Shown here: in pieces, positions 3,018 to 43,296 of the stretch
Position numbering within the stretch: position 1 is the first letter of the stretch
How the letters are laid out: every line of letters starts with the position of its first letter
DNA from: a virus
Virus record (IMG/VR): IMGVR_UViG_3300022690_001351
Coordinates: 1-59,243 of that record
DNA length: 59,243 nt
Direction: 5' to 3' (one strand)
Notes under the pieces: model-generated
Seen by the model: the letters and a program-made list of their open reading frames with translations, nothing else
The model's database searches: none
Told to the model about the DNA's origin: nothing
Translations under genes and position numbers: made by a program

Positions 3018-3485
3018 ATGACACAAGAAGATACGCAATTTAAAAAAGGTAACACTAAATCCGTTGGCAATAAGGGCGGCAGACCTAAAGGCAAAAGCAT
3101 GCAAAAGATATTAAAGCATATGCTTAAAGGCACTATGTTTGTTCAAGATGATGTAGTTGTTAATAAAAAAGGGGAGGTCACAAGGGAGCTTACGACCAAA
3201 GAAGTCCTAGCCTTAAAATTGGTAACAATAGGTCTTGAAGGTGAAGACGCCGATGCCATGCGTTCTATCCTTGCTATAATTGATAGAGTAGATGGAAAGG
3301 TTACTGATAAGGTAGAGCAGAAGAATATCGATCCATATACAGAAGCTGACTACAAAAGATTAGAAGAACACGACCAACGTCAAAAAGAAGCATACCACAA
3401 GCAACAAATGAAAAACATGTCTGCGGAAGAGGTGCAAGCAATCATAAAAGAAAGGGAGGACAAAGAAAATGACAGAACTGATTAG
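3018..3485 (+). CDS. DUF5681-like protein, candidate terminase small subunit
   Basis: 155 residues. The N-terminus QFKKGNTKSVGNKGGRPKGK matches the Lys/Gly/Arg-rich DUF5681 signature (FKKGxSGNxxGRPKG), common in phage packaging regions. A helical region and a charged coiled-coil tail (KEREDKENDRTD) follow. No other terminase small subunit is evident in the window, so this is the best candidate, but it lies about 12 kb from the large subunit and on the other strand. Its 3' end overlaps the kinase gene by 17 bases. Confidence 0.5.
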   Translation: MTQEDTQFKKGNTKSVGNKGGRPKGKSMQKILKHMLKGTMFVQDDVVVNKKGEVTRELTTKEVLALKLVTIGLEGEDADAMRSILAIIDRVDGKVTDKVEQKNIDPYTEADYKRLEEHDQRQKEAYHKQQMKNMSAEEVQAIIKEREDKENDRTD

Positions 3486-3942
3486 TGGCTTTCCAGGTGT
3501 TGGCAAGAGTTTTTTTGTTTGGCATTATAAAGGTCGTTTGAGATTACCAACTGATCCAAAGATAAATATTATGGATAGTGACAGTAGCAGGTTTAGTTTG
3601 GATGAGGATGGGGCTTTGTTTCCACAAAACTATATTGATTATATTTTAGATTCCGCAGACGAGTTTGATATAGTCATGATAAGTACACATGATGTTGTAA
3701 GAGATGCGTTAGTTAAACAGGATATTGATTTTACTTTGGTATATCCAAACATAGATTTAAAAAGTGAATATATGGAAAGATATAACCAGAGAGGGGATAA
3801 TAAAAGTTTTATCAAATTGATTAATACCAACTGGGATAAATGGATAACAGAGTTACAAAGCCAAGAGGGTTGCAAAAAGATTGAATTAAGCACAGGACAA
3901 TATTTAAGTGATGTTATAAGTGATATTCTAATAGAGCTATAA
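3469..3942 (+). CDS. P-loop kinase (nucleotide or nucleoside kinase-like)
   Basis: 157 residues. Walker A motif GFPGVGKSF at residues 7-15. DSDSS near residue 37 fits the acceptor or Walker B region. RYNQRGDNKSF near residue 105 fits a LID-like Arg-containing segment of adenylate-kinase-type folds. The size suits a small NMP or polynucleotide kinase. Substrate cannot be told from sequence; a role in nucleotide supply or RNA end repair is possible. The ribosome site GGGAGG lies inside the upstream gene, with which it overlaps. Confidence 0.7.
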   Translation: MTELISGFPGVGKSFFVWHYKGRLRLPTDPKINIMDSDSSRFSLDEDGALFPQNYIDYILDSADEFDIVMISTHDVVRDALVKQDIDFTLVYPNIDLKSEYMERYNQRGDNKSFIKLINTNWDKWITELQSQEGCKKIELSTGQYLSDVISDILIEL

Positions 3943-4002
3943 ATGAATAATAAAATGCGAGATAGGATTGATAGACTGCTTTTATATTAAATAACACCCC
4001 CC

Positions 4003-4031
4003 TTGACAAGTCGCCGCCCATCGTGTATAAT
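4003..4031 (+). promoter_or_regulatory. Conserved-spacer promoter, copy 1
   Basis: TTGACA (4003-4008), a 17-bp spacer AGTCGCCGCCCATCGTG and a consensus TATAAT (4026-4031). The predicted start of transcription is only 1-3 bases before ATG 4040, so the first message is probably leaderless. It heads the 4040-7102 cassette. Confidence 0.85.
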
Positions 4032-20406: not shown

Positions 20407-20478
20407 GCCCCCTTCGTCTATCGGTTAGGACATCAGGTTTTCAATCTGAGTAGGCAAGTTCGATTCTTGCAGGGGGTA
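20407..20478 (+). tRNA. tRNA-Glu (anticodon TTC)
   Basis: 72 bases folding as a standard cloverleaf. Acceptor GCCCCCT with AGGGGGT, D stem GTCT/GGAC, anticodon stem TCAGG/TCTGA with loop TTTTCAA (anticodon TTC), T stem GCAAG/CTTGC with loop TTCGATT. No CCA is encoded. It lies 10 bases after its promoter and 3 bases before the convergent DUF2313 gene. Confidence 0.93.
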
Positions 20479-20481
20479 CAT

Positions 20482-21084
20482 TTAAGTATTAAAAAACAAG
20501 ATACCAACATTAGCAGGCTTTAATATCCCGAATATGCACTGTAATATACTCTGTTGACCAATTGCAGCAGGTGTAAAAGGTACATCATAAGGTGGTACTT
20601 CTGGTATAATGCCATCCCCTCTAACTACCATAATAAACCTTGATGCAGGTGATTTTGTAGGAATAAAAGGTACACAATAAGGAGGAAATGCCTCATCTTG
20701 AAGTGGAGTCACGGTTACAACAAATCCGAGTAACAAGGCTATCTCTTCAAATTGTTCTTGTGTTGATACTCCGCTAGCACGTAATTTAATTATAATATTG
20801 GCACGTCGCTCTTCTATGGTTGGTGCGATTGTAAAACACGCATCAGGAATACCAACAGCAGACTCCCATTCTTCTATAAATAACGTTGTATTAAATATAT
20901 TATGCTCTTCAGCAACAGTTGCAATTTTATTCTCATCTCTTACAAATTCTTTAGAAAAAGCGGTGAATAAATTGTGTATATTACTATCAGGAATGTTTTT
21001 TTGATCAAATAATTTACCTAGTGGTAAAAAACTTACAGAAATCTGTGTATGATCTACTAATGTATTTCTATTAAATTTTACCAT
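20482..21084 (-). CDS. Tail protein, DUF2313 (Mu gp48 / YmfQ-like)
   Basis: 200 residues. KLFDQKNIPDSNIHNLFTAF, FIEEWESAVGIPDACF, then ERRANIIIKLRASGVSTQEQ and a beta-rich end (YDVPFTPAAIGQQ) match the DUF2313 baseplate protein that follows baseplate J in Mu-like phages. Here it is 15 kb from the baseplate J gene (36122-37669), so the tail operon has been split. The start has no clear ribosome site. Confidence 0.8.
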   Translation of the reverse strand: MVKFNRNTLVDHTQISVSFLPLGKLFDQKNIPDSNIHNLFTAFSKEFVRDENKIATVAEEHNIFNTTLFIEEWESAVGIPDACFTIAPTIEERRANIIIKLRASGVSTQEQFEEIALLLGFVVTVTPLQDEAFPPYCVPFIPTKSPASRFIMVVRGDGIIPEVPPYDVPFTPAAIGQQSILQCIFGILKPANVGILFFNT

Positions 21085-21101: not shown

Positions 21102-21131
21102 TTGACACGCTCGGCGATGACATGGTACTAT
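21102..21131 (+). promoter_or_regulatory. Loose member of the conserved-spacer promoter family
   Basis: TTGACA (21102-21107) and TACTAT (21126-21131) with an 18-bp spacer that ends in CATGG. The spacer differs from the main family except for its TG near the -10. It precedes the gene at 21171, so a start codon placed at the -35 TTG would be wrong. Confidence 0.6.
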
Positions 21132-21170: not shown

Positions 21171-21680
21171 ATGGTTACTGCAAGATATACAAAAAATAAG
21201 ACAGCAAAAGGGTATACGAGAATATCGTTATGGATTCCAACATCAGAAAAAGATGAAATTAATTCATATATTGAATTTAAAAGGGATCGTTGGGAATGCG
21301 AGACTGGCACAGGATTTAATAGTAACAAAAAAAAAGAATTAATGAATGCTATTGAGGAACTGTATCATGACGGTTCTGACTTAGAATCTATTGCTAGACA
21401 ACTTAATGATCGTGGTTTTACAGGAATGTATGGGGGCATCTTGTATGCTAGACAAATAAAAAGGCTGTGGAGAAGTGAAACAGGAATAGAAATTGATTCT
21501 GATAGAAAAAATGAGTTGATAAATATAGTAAAAAAATTACACAAAGACGGTTGTGACTTTGAATCTATCGCTTCTCAACTTCGCAAGCTTGGTTTTAAAG
21601 GTCATAATTTACATAGAAAACAAATCCAAAGATATTTAGATATGAAACAATCCCTTGACAAGTCACCACCCATCATGTAG
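21171..21680 (+). CDS. Putative DNA-binding regulator with two recombinase-like helical repeats
   Basis: 169 residues from ATG 21171. The front part (GYTRISLWIPTSEKDEINSY) resembles a ribbon-helix-helix strand and helix. Two repeats follow: ELMNAIEELYHDGSDLESIA, then RQLNDRGFTG, and ELINIVKKLHKDGCDFESIA, then SQLRKLGFKG. They resemble the helical region of serine recombinases (IA-x-x-LN-x-x-G), but no catalytic domain is present. The last codons overlap the promoter of the next tRNA (21655-21683), so the -35 and spacer are coding. Possible regulator of the promoter family. Confidence 0.55.
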   Translation: MVTARYTKNKTAKGYTRISLWIPTSEKDEINSYIEFKRDRWECETGTGFNSNKKKELMNAIEELYHDGSDLESIARQLNDRGFTGMYGGILYARQIKRLWRSETGIEIDSDRKNELINIVKKLHKDGCDFESIASQLRKLGFKGHNLHRKQIQRYLDMKQSLDKSPPIM

Positions 21681-21683
21681 TGT
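21655..21683 (+). promoter_or_regulatory. Conserved-spacer promoter, copy 4 (inside the end of a gene)
   Basis: TTGACA (21655-21660), spacer AGTCACCACCCATCATG and TAGTGT (21678-21683). It encodes the last residues (LDKSPPIM) and stop of the upstream gene, so it has been fitted into coding sequence. It drives the tRNA-Met-like gene and, probably, the RNA ligase. Confidence 0.85.
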
Positions 21684-21689
21684 ATACAA

Positions 21690-21788
21690 GTCGGAGTAGC
21701 TCAGTTGGTTAGAGCGGCGGTTCATAATATTTAGACCCATGGATCGATTATGAGGTGTAGGTCGGGGGTTCGAGTCCTCCTTCCGACA
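21690..21788 (+). tRNA. tRNA-Met(CAU)-like gene with about 25 extra bases in the anticodon arm
   Basis: The acceptor stem (GTCGGAG / TTCCGAC), D arm (GCTC/GAGC, loop AGTTGGTTA), variable part AGGTC and T arm (GGGGG/CCTCC, loop TTCGAGT) are standard. Between them lie 43 bases where 18 are usual. GCGGT (21717-21721) pairs weakly with GGTGT (21754-21758). Next, TCATAAT (21722-21728), which holds the CAT anticodon, is complementary to ATTATGA (21747-21753), leaving an 18-base loop. The anticodon would be buried in a long stem unless the insert is removed. It may be an intron-like insert, a decoy or a decayed tRNA. The RNA ligase gene lies just downstream. Confidence 0.6.
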
Positions 21789-21808
21789 TTAACATTTAGG
21801 AGGTTACA

Positions 21809-22996
21809 ATACAGACATTTCCATCAATTTCACAATTTCATTCCGTTAGAAAGTATTTAAAAAAGAATGCTTTAGATTTTGACATTCAATATCGAGCAAA
21901 GATTAAACTACATGGTTGTAATGTTGGTGTGCAATATGCTAATGATGGTCGTATTTATGCTCAATCTCGCAATGGCATCATTACACCTAAAGATGATCTT
22001 TTTGGTTTTGCAGCTTGGATTGGAGAAAACATTGATTGGTTTAGATTGCAATTTAAGTATATAGATAAATCTGTTCGTCCTATAACTATCTTTGGTGAGT
22101 GGTGCGGTAAAGGGATTCAAAAAAATACAGCCATAAATAAAATTGATCGAAAGATTTTTGCCATTTTTGCTATTCAATTTGAAGACTCTATTATGGTAGA
22201 ACCCAAAGCTATTGACGCACATTTAAACAAGGATTTAGCAGTATGGGAGTCTTCTCTACAGCCAGATAATCTATATATTTTACCATGGTTTGAAGAACGC
22301 TTACCATTGTTTACAAGTCTCTTAGGCGTATCAAATCTTAATATTATGTATAATAATGATTGTTCTATAAAAGAGGCTGTAGATTATCTTAATGATTGTG
22401 TAACTAAGATTGAAAAATGCGATCCTTGGGTTAAAAAAGTTTTTGATATTGAGGGAATTGGAGAGGGATTAGTTTGGTATCCATGTCTTGAAAAATCTCT
22501 TTGGGATGTCGACTTCGAAAAAACTAGTCAAGATATGTCCAAAAGTTTTGTTCAATATGATTCTTGGTCTAAAGATGTATTCGGCTGCATATCAAAAATT
22601 GGGAAAGGGACGGTTTTAGAATCCTATGTAAAAGACGGCTTTATAGAGTCAGGTGAATTTTCTAAATATGTCTTTAAAGTCAAAGGTAAAGCACATAAAG
22701 TAAATACCTCAAAAACTGCCGTGCAACTTGATCCTGATGTTTTAAAAAATATTAATGAATTTGTAGACAAGTTTGCAACTGAAAATCGTTTCATGCAAGG
22801 TGTTTGTGAAATCAATAATGGCAATCCTATATTTGAACAAAAATTAATTGGCAAGTTTATTGGTTGGGTGTCTAAAGATATTAAGAAGGAATCCGCCGCA
22901 GAGCTAGAAGTTAGCGGGTTAATCTGGCAACAAATAAATAATAAAATTACACAGCGTAGCCGTGAGTGGTATATCAAAAAATTAGAGGAGGTTTAA
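21809..22996 (+). CDS. RNA ligase (Rnl2-type nucleotidyltransferase) with a non-standard start
   Basis: 395 residues if it begins at ATA 21809, which is 5 bases after AGGAGG; the frame is open from 21800 and has no ATG, GTG or TTG until GTG 21929. Motif I IKLHGCNVG with the catalytic Lys lies at about residue 33, so a start at 21929 would lose it. Motif III IFGEWCGKGIQ, motif IV EGLVWYP and motif V FKVKGKAH follow in order. It seals RNA ends using ATP. It begins 20 bases after the odd tRNA and probably shares its transcript. The last 15 bases overlap the convergent gene. Confidence 0.85.
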   Translation: MQTFPSISQFHSVRKYLKKNALDFDIQYRAKIKLHGCNVGVQYANDGRIYAQSRNGIITPKDDLFGFAAWIGENIDWFRLQFKYIDKSVRPITIFGEWCGKGIQKNTAINKIDRKIFAIFAIQFEDSIMVEPKAIDAHLNKDLAVWESSLQPDNLYILPWFEERLPLFTSLLGVSNLNIMYNNDCSIKEAVDYLNDCVTKIEKCDPWVKKVFDIEGIGEGLVWYPCLEKSLWDVDFEKTSQDMSKSFVQYDSWSKDVFGCISKIGKGTVLESYVKDGFIESGEFSKYVFKVKGKAHKVNTSKTAVQLDPDVLKNINEFVDKFATENRFMQGVCEINNGNPIFEQKLIGKFIGWVSKDIKKESAAELEVSGLIWQQINNKITQRSREWYIKKLEEV

Positions 22997-28200: not shown

Positions 28201-29924
28201 TGACTATAAAAATAAAAATTGATAATTTTCGTAAAATCCAACAAGCTGATTTTGAAATCTCACCAATCACATTGTTGGTGGGAGAAAATGAAAATGGGAA
28301 GTCAAGTATTGCTATGGCAGTCTCTATGGTGGCAACTGGGAATATCTTGCCAAAAGGCATGTACAAGAAAGACGTCAATCAACTTATACATGACGGGGCA
28401 AGAGAAAGTAAAATCTCAATTTGTCGTAATGGACTCGCAACCGAGGTGATTTATCCAGCATGCGAGCATAATCAACACGCAGAAGGTAAGGATGCAACGT
28501 TAGAAGATGTTATTGCTGGACAAGCTGAACTTCAATCGTTTCATGTCTCAGATTTTGCGGCAGGACTTGGAGATATTTTTGAATTAAATAATTCTGAAAA
28601 AACAGCATATTTGATCAATCTTTTAAAGGCTGCACCAACTGAAAGTGATCTAAAGACCGCATTGAGTGCAGATACACACTTCTTAATTCCTGAAATATGG
28701 ACTCAAATTACACAATCTGGCTGGGATGCTACGTATGATATCGTTAAGAAAGAGGAAATTGAATTTATTGGTAGATGGAAACAAATCACTGGAGAGCTTA
28801 AATGGAATATCGATACAGCAAATAAATGGCGTCCTGCTGAATGGGAACAAAGTTTAGAACAAGGCAACCTAGAAGATTTGCAATCTGATTTTAATAATTC
28901 TGAAAAAGTGATTGAGGAAGCCTTGAAATCTGAAGGTGCAGCGGATTTTGATAAATCAAGGTTAGAAGATATTATTGCTGGAAAAACTGAACTGCAAGAG
29001 GAGCTTACAAAAAAAGAAACAGAAGTGCGTAATATACGGATAGAAATAGATGCTGTAATTAATCGATGTGATAATTTACCAAGTCCTGATGATATAGGAA
29101 TCCCATGCCCTGTATGTGACGCAGCCCTGATAATTGTCTCTAAAGAAGAAGGATATGTCTGTACTGAATATCTTGAAGATGCGACCGAAGAAAAGGAAAA
29201 TCGCGAGCAAGACAAGGATATTTTGTATATAGAAATTAATAGACTTAAGAATAAAGATCATGACATAAATAAACAAATATATAATATAAAGGAAAACTTA
29301 ACAAAGATAGAAAATGCAGAAATTGAACTGCAGAAAGCTAATGAAGCTAAAAATGTTAATAACATTACAACTGAGGAAGCAAAGACTCAGAGTATTAATA
29401 TAAAACTTCAACTTGATAATTTCATTAAGGTGCAACAAGCCTCTGATCTATATAAAAAGGTTATTATAAAAAGAGAATTATCATCAGCACTAAGTCAAAA
29501 TGGCGTTAGAAAAACTAAGCTTCAAGATGAAATTACAAAATTCAATAATGATATATTAAAGCCTCTATGTGATAAATTAAATTGGGAAGCTGTGATCATT
29601 GATAACGATTTAAATATATGGCGTGGCAGACGTGCATATAAATTATTGTCACGTTCGGCTAGGTATATCACTCGTGTTATTTTACAGGTTGGTCTTGCGA
29701 TGACTGATAAGTCTGAGTTGTTAATAATTGATGATTTAGATATAATAACCAATGATCAGAATAAGACTTGGTTGCTTGAGATGATTGCCTCGTCAAATAT
29801 CCCAGCACTTATTTGTATGGCAATCCGTCCTAATGAAAATGCACCGTCAATTCAAGGCACGACCTATTTAGTCAAGAATGGTACTATGGAATTAGTAGAA
29901 GAATACGGAGCAAAAAATGATTGA
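28200..29924 (+). CDS. SbcC/Rad50/RecF-like ATPase
   Basis: 574 residues. Walker A GENENGKSSIA at residue 28, long coiled coils with a central Cys pair (PCPVCDAALI), as in zinc-hook proteins, ABC-like region LLSRSARYITRVI and Walker B ELLIIDDLDII. These ATPases guide nuclease action on DNA ends. Coupled to the exonuclease and RHH genes, so a phage recombination machine is likely. Its stop overlaps the ankyrin gene start. Confidence 0.82.
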   Translation: MTIKIKIDNFRKIQQADFEISPITLLVGENENGKSSIAMAVSMVATGNILPKGMYKKDVNQLIHDGARESKISICRNGLATEVIYPACEHNQHAEGKDATLEDVIAGQAELQSFHVSDFAAGLGDIFELNNSEKTAYLINLLKAAPTESDLKTALSADTHFLIPEIWTQITQSGWDATYDIVKKEEIEFIGRWKQITGELKWNIDTANKWRPAEWEQSLEQGNLEDLQSDFNNSEKVIEEALKSEGAADFDKSRLEDIIAGKTELQEELTKKETEVRNIRIEIDAVINRCDNLPSPDDIGIPCPVCDAALIIVSKEEGYVCTEYLEDATEEKENREQDKDILYIEINRLKNKDHDINKQIYNIKENLTKIENAEIELQKANEAKNVNNITTEEAKTQSINIKLQLDNFIKVQQASDLYKKVIIKRELSSALSQNGVRKTKLQDEITKFNNDILKPLCDKLNWEAVIIDNDLNIWRGRRAYKLLSRSARYITRVILQVGLAMTDKSELLIIDDLDIITNDQNKTWLLEMIASSNIPALICMAIRPNENAPSIQGTTYLVKNGTMELVEEYGAKND

Positions 29925-30690
29925 AGATGTTTTAAACAGAGAGATTAATTGGGCTAAAGATAACGCCTCTATTGTGTACATTAAGACTCAGGATAACCAA
30001 AGCGGATTAACTGTACTGCACAAAGCATGTATGTACTGTAACCTAGAAGCTGTAAAAGCTTTTTTAGAAAAAGGAGCAGATGTTAATGTTAAGGATGCAC
30101 AGGGGAGAACCCCGCTTAATTGCATAGGTCAAAATTATATTCATGATTTTTATAAAATATTAAATTTAATGCTTGAATATGGTTCTGACATTAATTCTCA
30201 AGATAGTAGCGGTAAAACTCTTTTGCATAAAGCATGTGACGGTAGTAATAAACATCACATAAGCGTGTTATTGCATAAAGGAGCAGATATTGAAATTCAA
30301 GATGGATTTAATAGCAAGCCTTTTTACTATGCCTGTTGTCATAATGCGCCTTTTATTGTTGCATTTTTGATTGAACAAGGATGTAAAGTTGATTCTGAGG
30401 ATGATATTGACAGCGTTTTATATAACGCATGCGCATGGGATGATATAAAATCTATCAAGGTATTATTAAATAATGGGGCTAATATTAATGCTAAGCATGA
30501 CGATAATTCTACTTGTTTGCATTCTGCTTGTAAGGTGGGAAATATAGAGATTATACAATTGTTGTTAGATAGGGGGGCAAATATAGATGCTGAAGATGAT
30601 AGCGAATGGATTCCTCATGATTGTGCAAAATATAATTTCCACAAAGAAGTCATGAGGTTAATAGAATCTCATTGGAGTAACGTCATTTAA
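29917..30690 (+). CDS. Ankyrin-repeat protein
   Basis: 257 residues, about six ankyrin repeats (GLTVLHKACMYCNLEAVKAF, then LEKGADVNVKD; later LLDRGANIDAED). No signal peptide, membrane span or extra domain seen. GGAG lies before the ATG, inside the ATPase gene. Ankyrin proteins bind other proteins and are common in phages of eukaryote-associated bacteria. The target is unknown. Confidence 0.85.
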   Translation: MIEDVLNREINWAKDNASIVYIKTQDNQSGLTVLHKACMYCNLEAVKAFLEKGADVNVKDAQGRTPLNCIGQNYIHDFYKILNLMLEYGSDINSQDSSGKTLLHKACDGSNKHHISVLLHKGADIEIQDGFNSKPFYYACCHNAPFIVAFLIEQGCKVDSEDDIDSVLYNACAWDDIKSIKVLLNNGANINAKHDDNSTCLHSACKVGNIEIIQLLLDRGANIDAEDDSEWIPHDCAKYNFHKEVMRLIESHWSNVI

Positions 30691-39880: not shown

Positions 39881-40115
39881 CGCCATGACTTTGATAGTTT
39901 TAAATAATTCAGGACATAACTTTGATTGGAGGATAAGCCTTTTTTTATTAATAATTTCAAGCTCATTTCTTTTATATGCTATATGGCATTGTTGGGGTAG
40001 CTATGTAACAATTATAGTTTTCTTAACATGTATGATTATTACTATGCTATATGGAATAGATTCTCATAATACCGCTATCGAGGAGTATGTTTATGCCCTT
40101 CAGCAAAGAAACTAA
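39870..40115 (+). CDS. Small membrane protein
   Basis: 81 residues from ATG 39870, inside the end of the previous gene (GGAG upstream). Three hydrophobic stretches (about 4-12, 20-38 and 44-62). It overlaps the Hint-HNH gene. Function unknown. Confidence 0.5.
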   Translation: MISSAMTLIVLNNSGHNFDWRISLFLLIISSSFLLYAIWHCWGSYVTIIVFLTCMIITMLYGIDSHNTAIEEYVYALQQRN

Positions 40116-40908
40116 AATCCCGCTATTAGATGGTCAACAGCGTTCATTAGAAGAGTTGTCAAAAAGAGATAAACCGTTTTGTGTATATACCTGCAAGCAA
40201 AATGGAGATATAACTTGTGCATATGCAACGGCAAAGTTGGTCAAAGAAAATGCTGAATTAATAAAAGTGACTTTAGATAATAACAAAGAAATAACTTGCA
40301 CGCCAGACATCAGGTTTGTATTAACTGATGGTACTCATTTAAATGCAAAGGATATATGTTCATGTATTTTTTATGATCAGTATTTACGGCAATTTACATT
40401 AAAAAGTCTCCACAAATATTTTGCTATACAACAATGGAAATTCAGTTCTCTCATGAAGATCCATCATCTTGTTGAGGAATCAGGATTATTAGGGGAAAGA
40501 CCGATCTTTGACAATCAAATAACAGAAATTCACCATAAAGATTTTAATAGGTATAATAACGACCCAAGCAATTTACAGTTTATAGGCGATAAAGACCATC
40601 GCTTATTACATAAAGATCGTTATCCACGAATTTATTCAGTCTTTGAAATTAACATGCATAGAATAATAATTGCGGGAAATGCAATTGAATCTATAGAAAA
40701 ACCAGAAACAAAATTAAAAAAAGTTGCCAAGATGGGGGTAAGACATTTATCTGCTTTATATATAAATAGACAGCACGAATTGCGCATGAAAATGAATAGT
40801 AACAAGGATAATGATGGCAACAAGGATGTGTACACTTTAATCGTTGAAGGCTATGACACCTTTGCTATAAGTGCAGGTGTATTTGTTAAAACCCAACCAA
40901 AGGATTGA
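40093..40908 (+). CDS. Free-standing Hint-HNH protein (intein-like homing endonuclease)
   Basis: 271 residues from ATG 40093 (GAGGAG 7 bases before). The N-terminus PFSKETKIPLLDGQQRSLEE matches intein block A, but with Pro where Cys1 should be. VTLDNNKEITCTPDIRFVLT matches block B without its His. An HNH nuclease lies in the middle (EIHHKDFNRYNNDPSNLQFI, then HRLLH). The end VYTLIVEGYDTFAISAGVFV matches blocks F and G without the final Asn. Splicing is probably dead; homing may remain. Confidence 0.75.
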   Translation: MPFSKETKIPLLDGQQRSLEELSKRDKPFCVYTCKQNGDITCAYATAKLVKENAELIKVTLDNNKEITCTPDIRFVLTDGTHLNAKDICSCIFYDQYLRQFTLKSLHKYFAIQQWKFSSLMKIHHLVEESGLLGERPIFDNQITEIHHKDFNRYNNDPSNLQFIGDKDHRLLHKDRYPRIYSVFEINMHRIIIAGNAIESIEKPETKLKKVAKMGVRHLSALYINRQHELRMKMNSNKDNDGNKDVYTLIVEGYDTFAISAGVFVKTQPKD

Positions 40909-42546: not shown

Positions 42547-43296
42547 TTAAGCGGCATATTGTCGCGCACGTTTGAAAAAGTTACGCTGTGTCATTTTTGA
42601 AGAGGTATCAATCATTGATGTATCTGTTGCATCAACAATATCAAACTTAATCCAATCACCTTTTGCTGTAACCTTGGCAAGTAAATATTCACTGTGCGAA
42701 TATTTATATTCCTGACTGAAAGTCAAGTCGCTTGCTCCTTCCACCCCTGATCGTTTATCATAAATTGGTTTATCTAAAATTACAACTTCATCAACTGCTA
42801 CATCTGCAATGTCAGAGGCAATGGAGTGTTCCGCAGATAGAATTGAGTCACGTGACCGCAACGCTTCTTTAAGTTGCAATTCCTTTTTTTCACTTTTATC
42901 TAAAATTCTTGCCCCGTGTTTTTTCAGTAAATCTTGAACTTCTTTTGATTTGTTTTTTCCTGTTTCTGCTACTGTTATTCCAGCATTAGTTGCGACTGTT
43001 ACTGACGCACCCTTTTTAATTAATAACTCAACCAGCTCTATATTGTCTTTAATTACAGCATAAAGAAGCGGGGAATGGCCGTGGCTAGTTTGAATATTAA
43101 CGTCTGCTCCATGTTGAACCAGTAATCTTGCTACTTCAAATTGTCCCTTTGAACACATTAATAGAAGCGGCGAATCGCCAAGTTCGTCTATATTATTAAT
43201 ATCACTTAGACTTGCGGTTTTTAGCCATTCTTCTACTTTAACAAGTTGTTTTTTTTCGCCACGTAAAGTATTAAATAATTGTTTTAAATTAGGCAT
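42547..43296 (-). CDS. Ankyrin-repeat protein
   Basis: 249 residues. Residues about 35-135 hold three ankyrin repeats (GDSPLLLMCSKGQFEVARLL, then VQHGADVNIQT; LIKKGASVTVAT). The C-terminal 110 residues are a separate domain with no recognised family. Its promoter, leader and first codons are copied, inverted, in front of the gene at 43491. Confidence 0.82.
   Translation of the reverse strand: MPNLKQLFNTLRGEKKQLVKVEEWLKTASLSDINNIDELGDSPLLLMCSKGQFEVARLLVQHGADVNIQTSHGHSPLLYAVIKDNIELVELLIKKGASVTVATNAGITVAETGKNKSKEVQDLLKKHGARILDKSEKKELQLKEALRSRDSILSAEHSIASDIADVAVDEVVILDKPIYDKRSGVEGASDLTFSQEYKYSHSEYLLAKVTAKGDWIKFDIVDATDTSMIDTSSKMTQRNFFKRARQYAA

Follow-up and report, generated by a model that had tools for sequence, protein, structure and literature searches.

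A tRNA-like gene whose former anticodon is sealed in a helix (21690-21788, plus strand) lies 20 nt upstream of an RNA ligase gene in the window, by which we mean the whole 59,243-base viral record, carrying Mu-like tail genes, a terminase and a capsid gene. We propose, at a probability of about 0.35, that the tRNA-like gene is a non-decoding mimic of tRNA-Met, perhaps resistant to nucleases, made together with an RNA-repair ligase. This mimic or decoy reading is in our view the likeliest, with that of an inactivated phage tRNA close behind: a captured tRNA-Met broken by one insertion and on its way out, beside a ligase that is an accidental neighbour.

The plus-strand island comprises a 169-aa ORF (21171-21680), the tRNA-like gene and the ligase gene (21809-22996), separated by 10 and 20 nt and flanked by the tail gene gp48 (20482-21084, minus strand) and by further minus-strand genes from 23254 down. 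A promoter had been claimed at 21655; TTGACA is present there, but it has no good -10, and the weak site was absent from our promoter-scan list. The better candidate appears to be TTGACA-18-TACTAT at 21102-21131 (plus strand), ahead of the 169-aa ORF, a consensus match only (10/12 with TG) in a scan whose 22 promoter-like sites were no excess over the 17.9 expected from shuffles. The ORF, probably the first gene of the transcript, would encode a DNA-binding protein, with weak similarity to integrase phrog_95 (E 3e-4) and a low-confidence predicted structure of two helical repeats (pLDDT 49.7); no relatives were found in the sequence collections searched. The affinities of TerL and of the tRNA point to Alphaproteobacteria as hosts. 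Among the genomes and phages searched there was no close relative, the best TerL match (58%) being in a 12 kb contig (L001) that has no ligase. We also noted an ordinary tRNA-Glu(TTC) at 20407-20479 on the plus strand, between two minus-strand tail genes, and an ORF at 40087-40908, nearly all of which is covered by a weak Pfam match, below threshold, to the intein-splicing domain. Two ankyrin-repeat proteins (29917-30690 and 42547-43296) in this tailed phage of alphaproteobacterial affinities may point to an intracellular host.

The body of the tRNA-like gene derives from an alphaproteobacterial elongator tRNA-Met(CAT). Over its 5´ half (nt 3-39) the gene shares 92-95% identity with the elongator tRNA-Met of alphaproteobacterial genomes, and in full it reads GTCGGAG TAGCTCAGTTGGTTAGAGC G GCGG-T TCATAAT (ATTTAGACCCATGGATCGATTATGAG) GTGT AGGTC GGGGG TTCGAGT CCTCC TTCCGAC A, with the insert in brackets and no encoded CCA. 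The normal acceptor, D and T arms described in the earlier note were confirmed: the Rfam tRNA model (RF00005) matched exactly 21690-21788 with 43.8 bits (gathering score 29), and pairing is kept in the acceptor stem (7/7) and T stem (3/3 tested), with a D arm identical to that of tRNA-Met. Rfam reported only tRNA, and ARAGORN in its default mode missed the gene. ARAGORN's intron mode called Asn(att), having a long variable arm and an intron of 4 nt. We rejected this call, since the 5´ half is that of tRNA-Met and has its CAT loop in register; the alternative stem is also weaker. On alignment with 11 alphaproteobacterial tRNA-Met sequences, no pair was broken in any stem outside the anticodon arm. 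Acceptor pair 2-71 has changed on both sides (G-C to T-A, compensated), and pairs 1-72 and 50-64 have each gone from G.T to G-C. A compensated pair together with complete stems is not what free decay looks like, and the kept body argues for the mimic and against an inactivated tRNA, whose stems would have stayed fully paired despite several body differences. On the other side, all three pair changes may predate the insert, which takes weight from the compensated pair as a point for the mimic.

The anticodon arm is where the gene departs from a decoding tRNA, as the 5-bp anticodon stem and exposed 7-nt loop are absent and the D stem lies 51 nt, rather than 26, from GGTTCGA. The roughly 25 extra bases noted before are real and can be given more exactly as the 26-nt insert ATTTAGACCCATGGATCGATTATGAG (21729-21754, plus strand) after position 39, to which is added the loss of one nucleotide 5´ of the anticodon (AA to T) relative to real tRNA-Met. 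The former anticodon CAT (21723-21725, plus strand), placed by alignment with tRNA-Met, lies in TCATAAT (21722-21728), which is complementary to ATTATGA (21747-21753) in the insert. The suggestion that CAT is paired with the insert in a 7-bp stem therefore stood, with a pairing probability of ~0.95 for C34-A35-U36 when the other arms were held in the fold. Positions 40-43, CCGC or CCGT in tRNA-Met, are replaced by GTGT (21755-21758, plus strand), which cannot reform the anticodon stem. In the predicted fold, the rebuilt hairpin starts with GCG/UGU; after a G.G mismatch, UUCAUAAU pairs with AUUAUGAG, and past a bulge of 2 nt AUUUA pairs with UGGAU to close the loop GACCCA. An anticodon sealed in this way, with no normal arm after excision, is as expected of a mimic, and the lost anticodon stem also fits an inactivated tRNA.

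How the insert arose bears on both readings. Seven or more contiguous anticodon pairs were found in a 30-nt tail in 1.1% of shuffles and in 0.76% of window 30-mers; the TCATAAT/ATTATGA pairing is probably modestly beyond chance. It could have arisen by fold-back copying and not by selection. An inverted copy of the anticodon loop is the expected trace of hairpin-templated mutation, and in an inactivated tRNA fold-back (quasi-palindromic) copying perhaps wrote ATTATGA opposite TCATAAT; that the insert could be a recent mutation of this type counts against the mimic. The whole-RNA fold is unexceptional (z -1.37, with 19 of 200 shuffles as good), another point for inactivation, and no second copy of the insert was found within the window.

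The downstream ORF (21809-22996, plus strand, 395 aa) is predicted from its sequence to be an intact Rnl2-family ligase and a sealer of nicks. It matches phrog_548 (E 3.6e-44) over residues 2-392, including the C-terminal domain, as well as PF09414 (E 9.5e-12); in the PDB, sequence comparison retrieves T4 Rnl2 and nothing else. For the predicted structure (pLDDT 82.5), the top Foldseek matches are likewise T4 Rnl2 (E 9e-11), with a low whole-chain TM (0.36-0.38) that perhaps reflects domain orientation. Motifs I-V are present (K33, G36, N38, E97, G218-G220, K290 and K292), the KxHGxN, GEW, EGxV and KxK positions invariant across 28 aligned sequences being kept, and the stretch from motif IV to motif V carries ~50 additional residues that are missing from the aligned relatives and modelled with low confidence. 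This intact frame and active site supports a mimic made with a repair enzyme and speaks against an island in decay. The ligase gene is indeed found across a 20-nt gap, as the earlier note had it, but without a standard start. From the preceding stop (21797) to the catalytic lysine the frame contains no ATG, GTG or TTG, and the sole plausible start is an ATA at 21809-21811, 5 nt after AGGAGG; thus either translation begins at ATA or a sequencing error or a mutation has altered the base. This suggests weak ligase expression or a damaged or misread start, which detracts from the mimic and, as a second degenerate element, favours inactivation.

As a mimic, the gene could act as follows. The DNA-binding ORF, tRNA-like gene and ligase would be carried on one transcript, from which host RNase P and RNase Z would free the RNA, leaving a ligase mRNA that starts just before its Shine-Dalgarno sequence. 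The RNA would fold as an L that could neither be cut in a normal anticodon loop nor decode, and it would compete for a host enzyme recognising the tRNA body, most probably an anticodon nuclease that the host deploys against infection. The ligase would reseal tRNAs cut with 5´-phosphate and 3´-hydroxyl ends. The target enzyme and the stability of the RNA are the least certain of these steps. A nuclease leaving 5´-phosphate/3´-hydroxyl ends would suit a ligase that has no healing enzymes beside it. VapC, as a metal-dependent nuclease, leaves such ends, and we envisage metal-dependent PIN-domain nucleases of this kind as the target. In Shigella and Salmonella, VapC cleaves the anticodon stem-loop of tRNA-fMet (PMC5408214). 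Ligases of the Rnl2 kind join 5´-phosphate to 3´-hydroxyl, and phage ligases are generally taken to be repairers of cut tRNAs (PMC7824862).

Among known systems, the nearest precedent appears to be the rsr-yrlBA-rtcBA operon, which co-expresses a tRNA-like RNA with a ligase and whose authors raise the possibility that the RNA, YrlA, competitively inhibits an anticodon nuclease (PMC7790460). Both that operon and, by prediction, the window bring together in one transcription unit a non-working tRNA-like RNA (there the Y RNA YrlA) and an adjoining RNA ligase (there RtcB), with a regulator gene beside them. The window differs in having Rnl2 rather than RtcB, in an RNA that comes straight from tRNA-Met with a complete acceptor stem, and in being phage-borne; no Ro60 protein or TROVE domain was found among the scanned window ORFs, and Rfam, giving only tRNA, found no Y RNA. 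The evasion of PrrC by T4, with a polynucleotide kinase/phosphatase and Rnl1, likewise involves a phage ligase, whose presumed role is to reseal tRNAs of the host or the phage (PMC10264068, PMC3400036), whereas the window ligase is of the Rnl2 family with no end-healing enzyme seen, and the T4 system has no mimic RNA. Phage tRNAs evade tRNA-targeting defences through changes in the anticodon loop (PMC10264068) or by replacing cleaved tRNAs (PMC11555353). Like these, the window gene is phage-encoded and altered at the anticodon arm; they still decode, whereas the window gene, with its anticodon buried and its stem lost, is predicted not to. The known phage answers to tRNA cleavage are replacement tRNAs, resistant anticodon loops and ligases, and a selected tRNA body with a sealed anticodon would, if the mimic reading is true, be a fourth, the decoy.

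An unlikely alternative is that the cloverleaf is kept only as a cutting site for RNase P and RNase Z or as a leader controlling ligase translation, for which the short distances of 10 and 20 nt to the flanking ORFs speak. In the control version, CCTCCT in the T stem/acceptor (21776-21781) might pair with the ligase Shine-Dalgarno AGGAGG (21798-21803, plus strand) when the cloverleaf is unformed, and this misfold was predicted to be 3.4 kcal/mol better than the cloverleaf in a longer transcript. However, such a match is often expected, given that ordinary tRNA-Met contains CCTCC and that AGGAGG is the consensus, and the Shine-Dalgarno sequence sits in a weak local hairpin in every version. Riboswitch-like control through this pairing is possible, but we set it aside as the pairing is not specific. 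Neither version explains the insert.

Very improbable is a tRNA whose short intron is spliced by proteins, its own ligase among them: a nuclease would cut out the ~26 nt and the Rnl2 ligase would join the halves. The ligase next door and an insert near the usual intron site, paired to the anticodon, recommend this reading; such pairing over the anticodon is common in eukaryotic and archaeal pre-tRNAs. The insert is at 39/40 rather than 37/38, however, and its removal would leave GCGG opposite GUGU (G.U, C-G, G.U and a mismatch), and the resulting 73-mer is predicted to fold with no anticodon stem and an energy of -23.2 kcal/mol, compared with -29.9 for an ordinary alphaproteobacterial tRNA-Met. 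The window gene resembles archaeal intron-containing tRNAs in its short anticodon-arm insert pairing over the anticodon, but it has no bulge-helix-bulge in the predicted fold and its exons form no stem. No splicing endonuclease and no end-healing kinase or phosphatase was found among the scanned window ORFs, a set that included only part of the smallest. The ends would also be wrong: archaeal and eukaryal splicing leaves 2´,3´-cyclic phosphate and 5´-OH (PMC3400036), which phage ligases of the Rnl1/Rnl2 type, needing 5´-phosphate and 3´-hydroxyl, cannot use directly (PMC7824862). Bacterial tRNA introns have so far been self-splicing group I introns, and archaeal introns are 16-44 nt with a bulge-helix-bulge (PMC3400036). 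A 26-nt insert is far too short for group I, of which Rfam found no match. The removable intron raised as a possibility in the earlier note is thus unlikely. Of the other two readings offered there, a decoy is compatible with what we observed, and a decayed tRNA is partly countered by the compensated acceptor pair and the complete D and T arms.

The window gene is a single instance, with one copy known. Searches of 2.9 million viral contigs and 85,000 genomes, from which records very close to the window may be missing, gave no relative of the 26-nt insert. In pattern searches, TCATAA with a long arm retrieved only an ordinary tRNA followed downstream by another T-arm-like stretch, the common D arm combined with any anticodon gave no relative of the insert, and the four matches to TCATAA..TTATGA were all unrelated to it. 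One of the four (L324) was rejected as a different tRNA with a 45-nt hairpin in its loop and no PF09414 ligase in the record. This record is of a 79.6-kb phage with a tRNA array (3414-3496, 3891-4012) in which one tRNA has a 15-nt anticodon loop and another the 45-nt loop hairpin. An alignment-based search found relatives of the ligase at 430 IMG/VR loci; a single-sequence search found none, and there were none in plasmids. The same tRNA-ligase pair, a proposed check on related phages, was not seen in the best 80 of the 430, where no tRNA lies within 100 nt and the nearest tRNA genes, at least 108 nt away, are of ordinary length. That the gene is a singleton, with neither its insert nor the DNA-binding ORF having relatives, and that ligase relatives come without an adjacent tRNA, are points against the mimic; a singleton is compatible with an inactivated tRNA.

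Rebuilt anticodon arms nevertheless recur in phages, as the mimic would have it and as inactivation would not. With a pattern requiring 10-40 extra bases between a D arm and a T arm of the common type-I form, we found 69 viral matches besides the window that pair properly in the acceptor and T stem; 59 of these lack an ordinary anticodon arm and represent 45 distinct phage tRNA-like sequences, under a rough criterion that may have let in a few type II tRNAs or chance combinations. In one family (L147, L157, L160, L163, L167, L171 and L185) a second hairpin replaces the anticodon loop; every cell is paired (100%), both partners have changed in 10 cells, and covariation scores 0.452 compared with 0.169 in shuffles. 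A PF09414 ligase was present in 5 of the 50 viral records with rebuilt genes, and only three of these ligases could be recognised by the window ligase protein. This rarity weighs against the mimic and indicates that tRNA-ligase adjacency is not a general rule, the link being particular to the window. With 45 distinct rebuilt genes and one covarying family, the question can be tested beyond a single contig. A broader proposal, which we hold to be rather unlikely, is that unrelated phages repeatedly rebuild captured tRNAs into non-decoding decoys, here paired with a ligase as a shield-and-repair cassette on one transcript. A decoy role, if true, would explain why phages have tRNA-like genes that escape tRNA finders.

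The covarying family (L147:3685-3778) has a conserved ACGT.CTG, and one partly similar phage record carries no annotated feature there. Phage tRNA-like genes with rebuilt anticodon arms form two further sets, alike within each set, one of +24 nt (L137, L141, L156, L158 and L175) and one of +34 nt (L145 and L199). In genomes, the same pattern matched mostly archaeal introns and a Chryseobacterium family (L221, L226, L233, L236, L238, L240, L252, L259, L261 and L287), whose chromosomal tRNA-like genes have 25-40 extra bases in the anticodon region (GGGGCAG...CTGCTCC).
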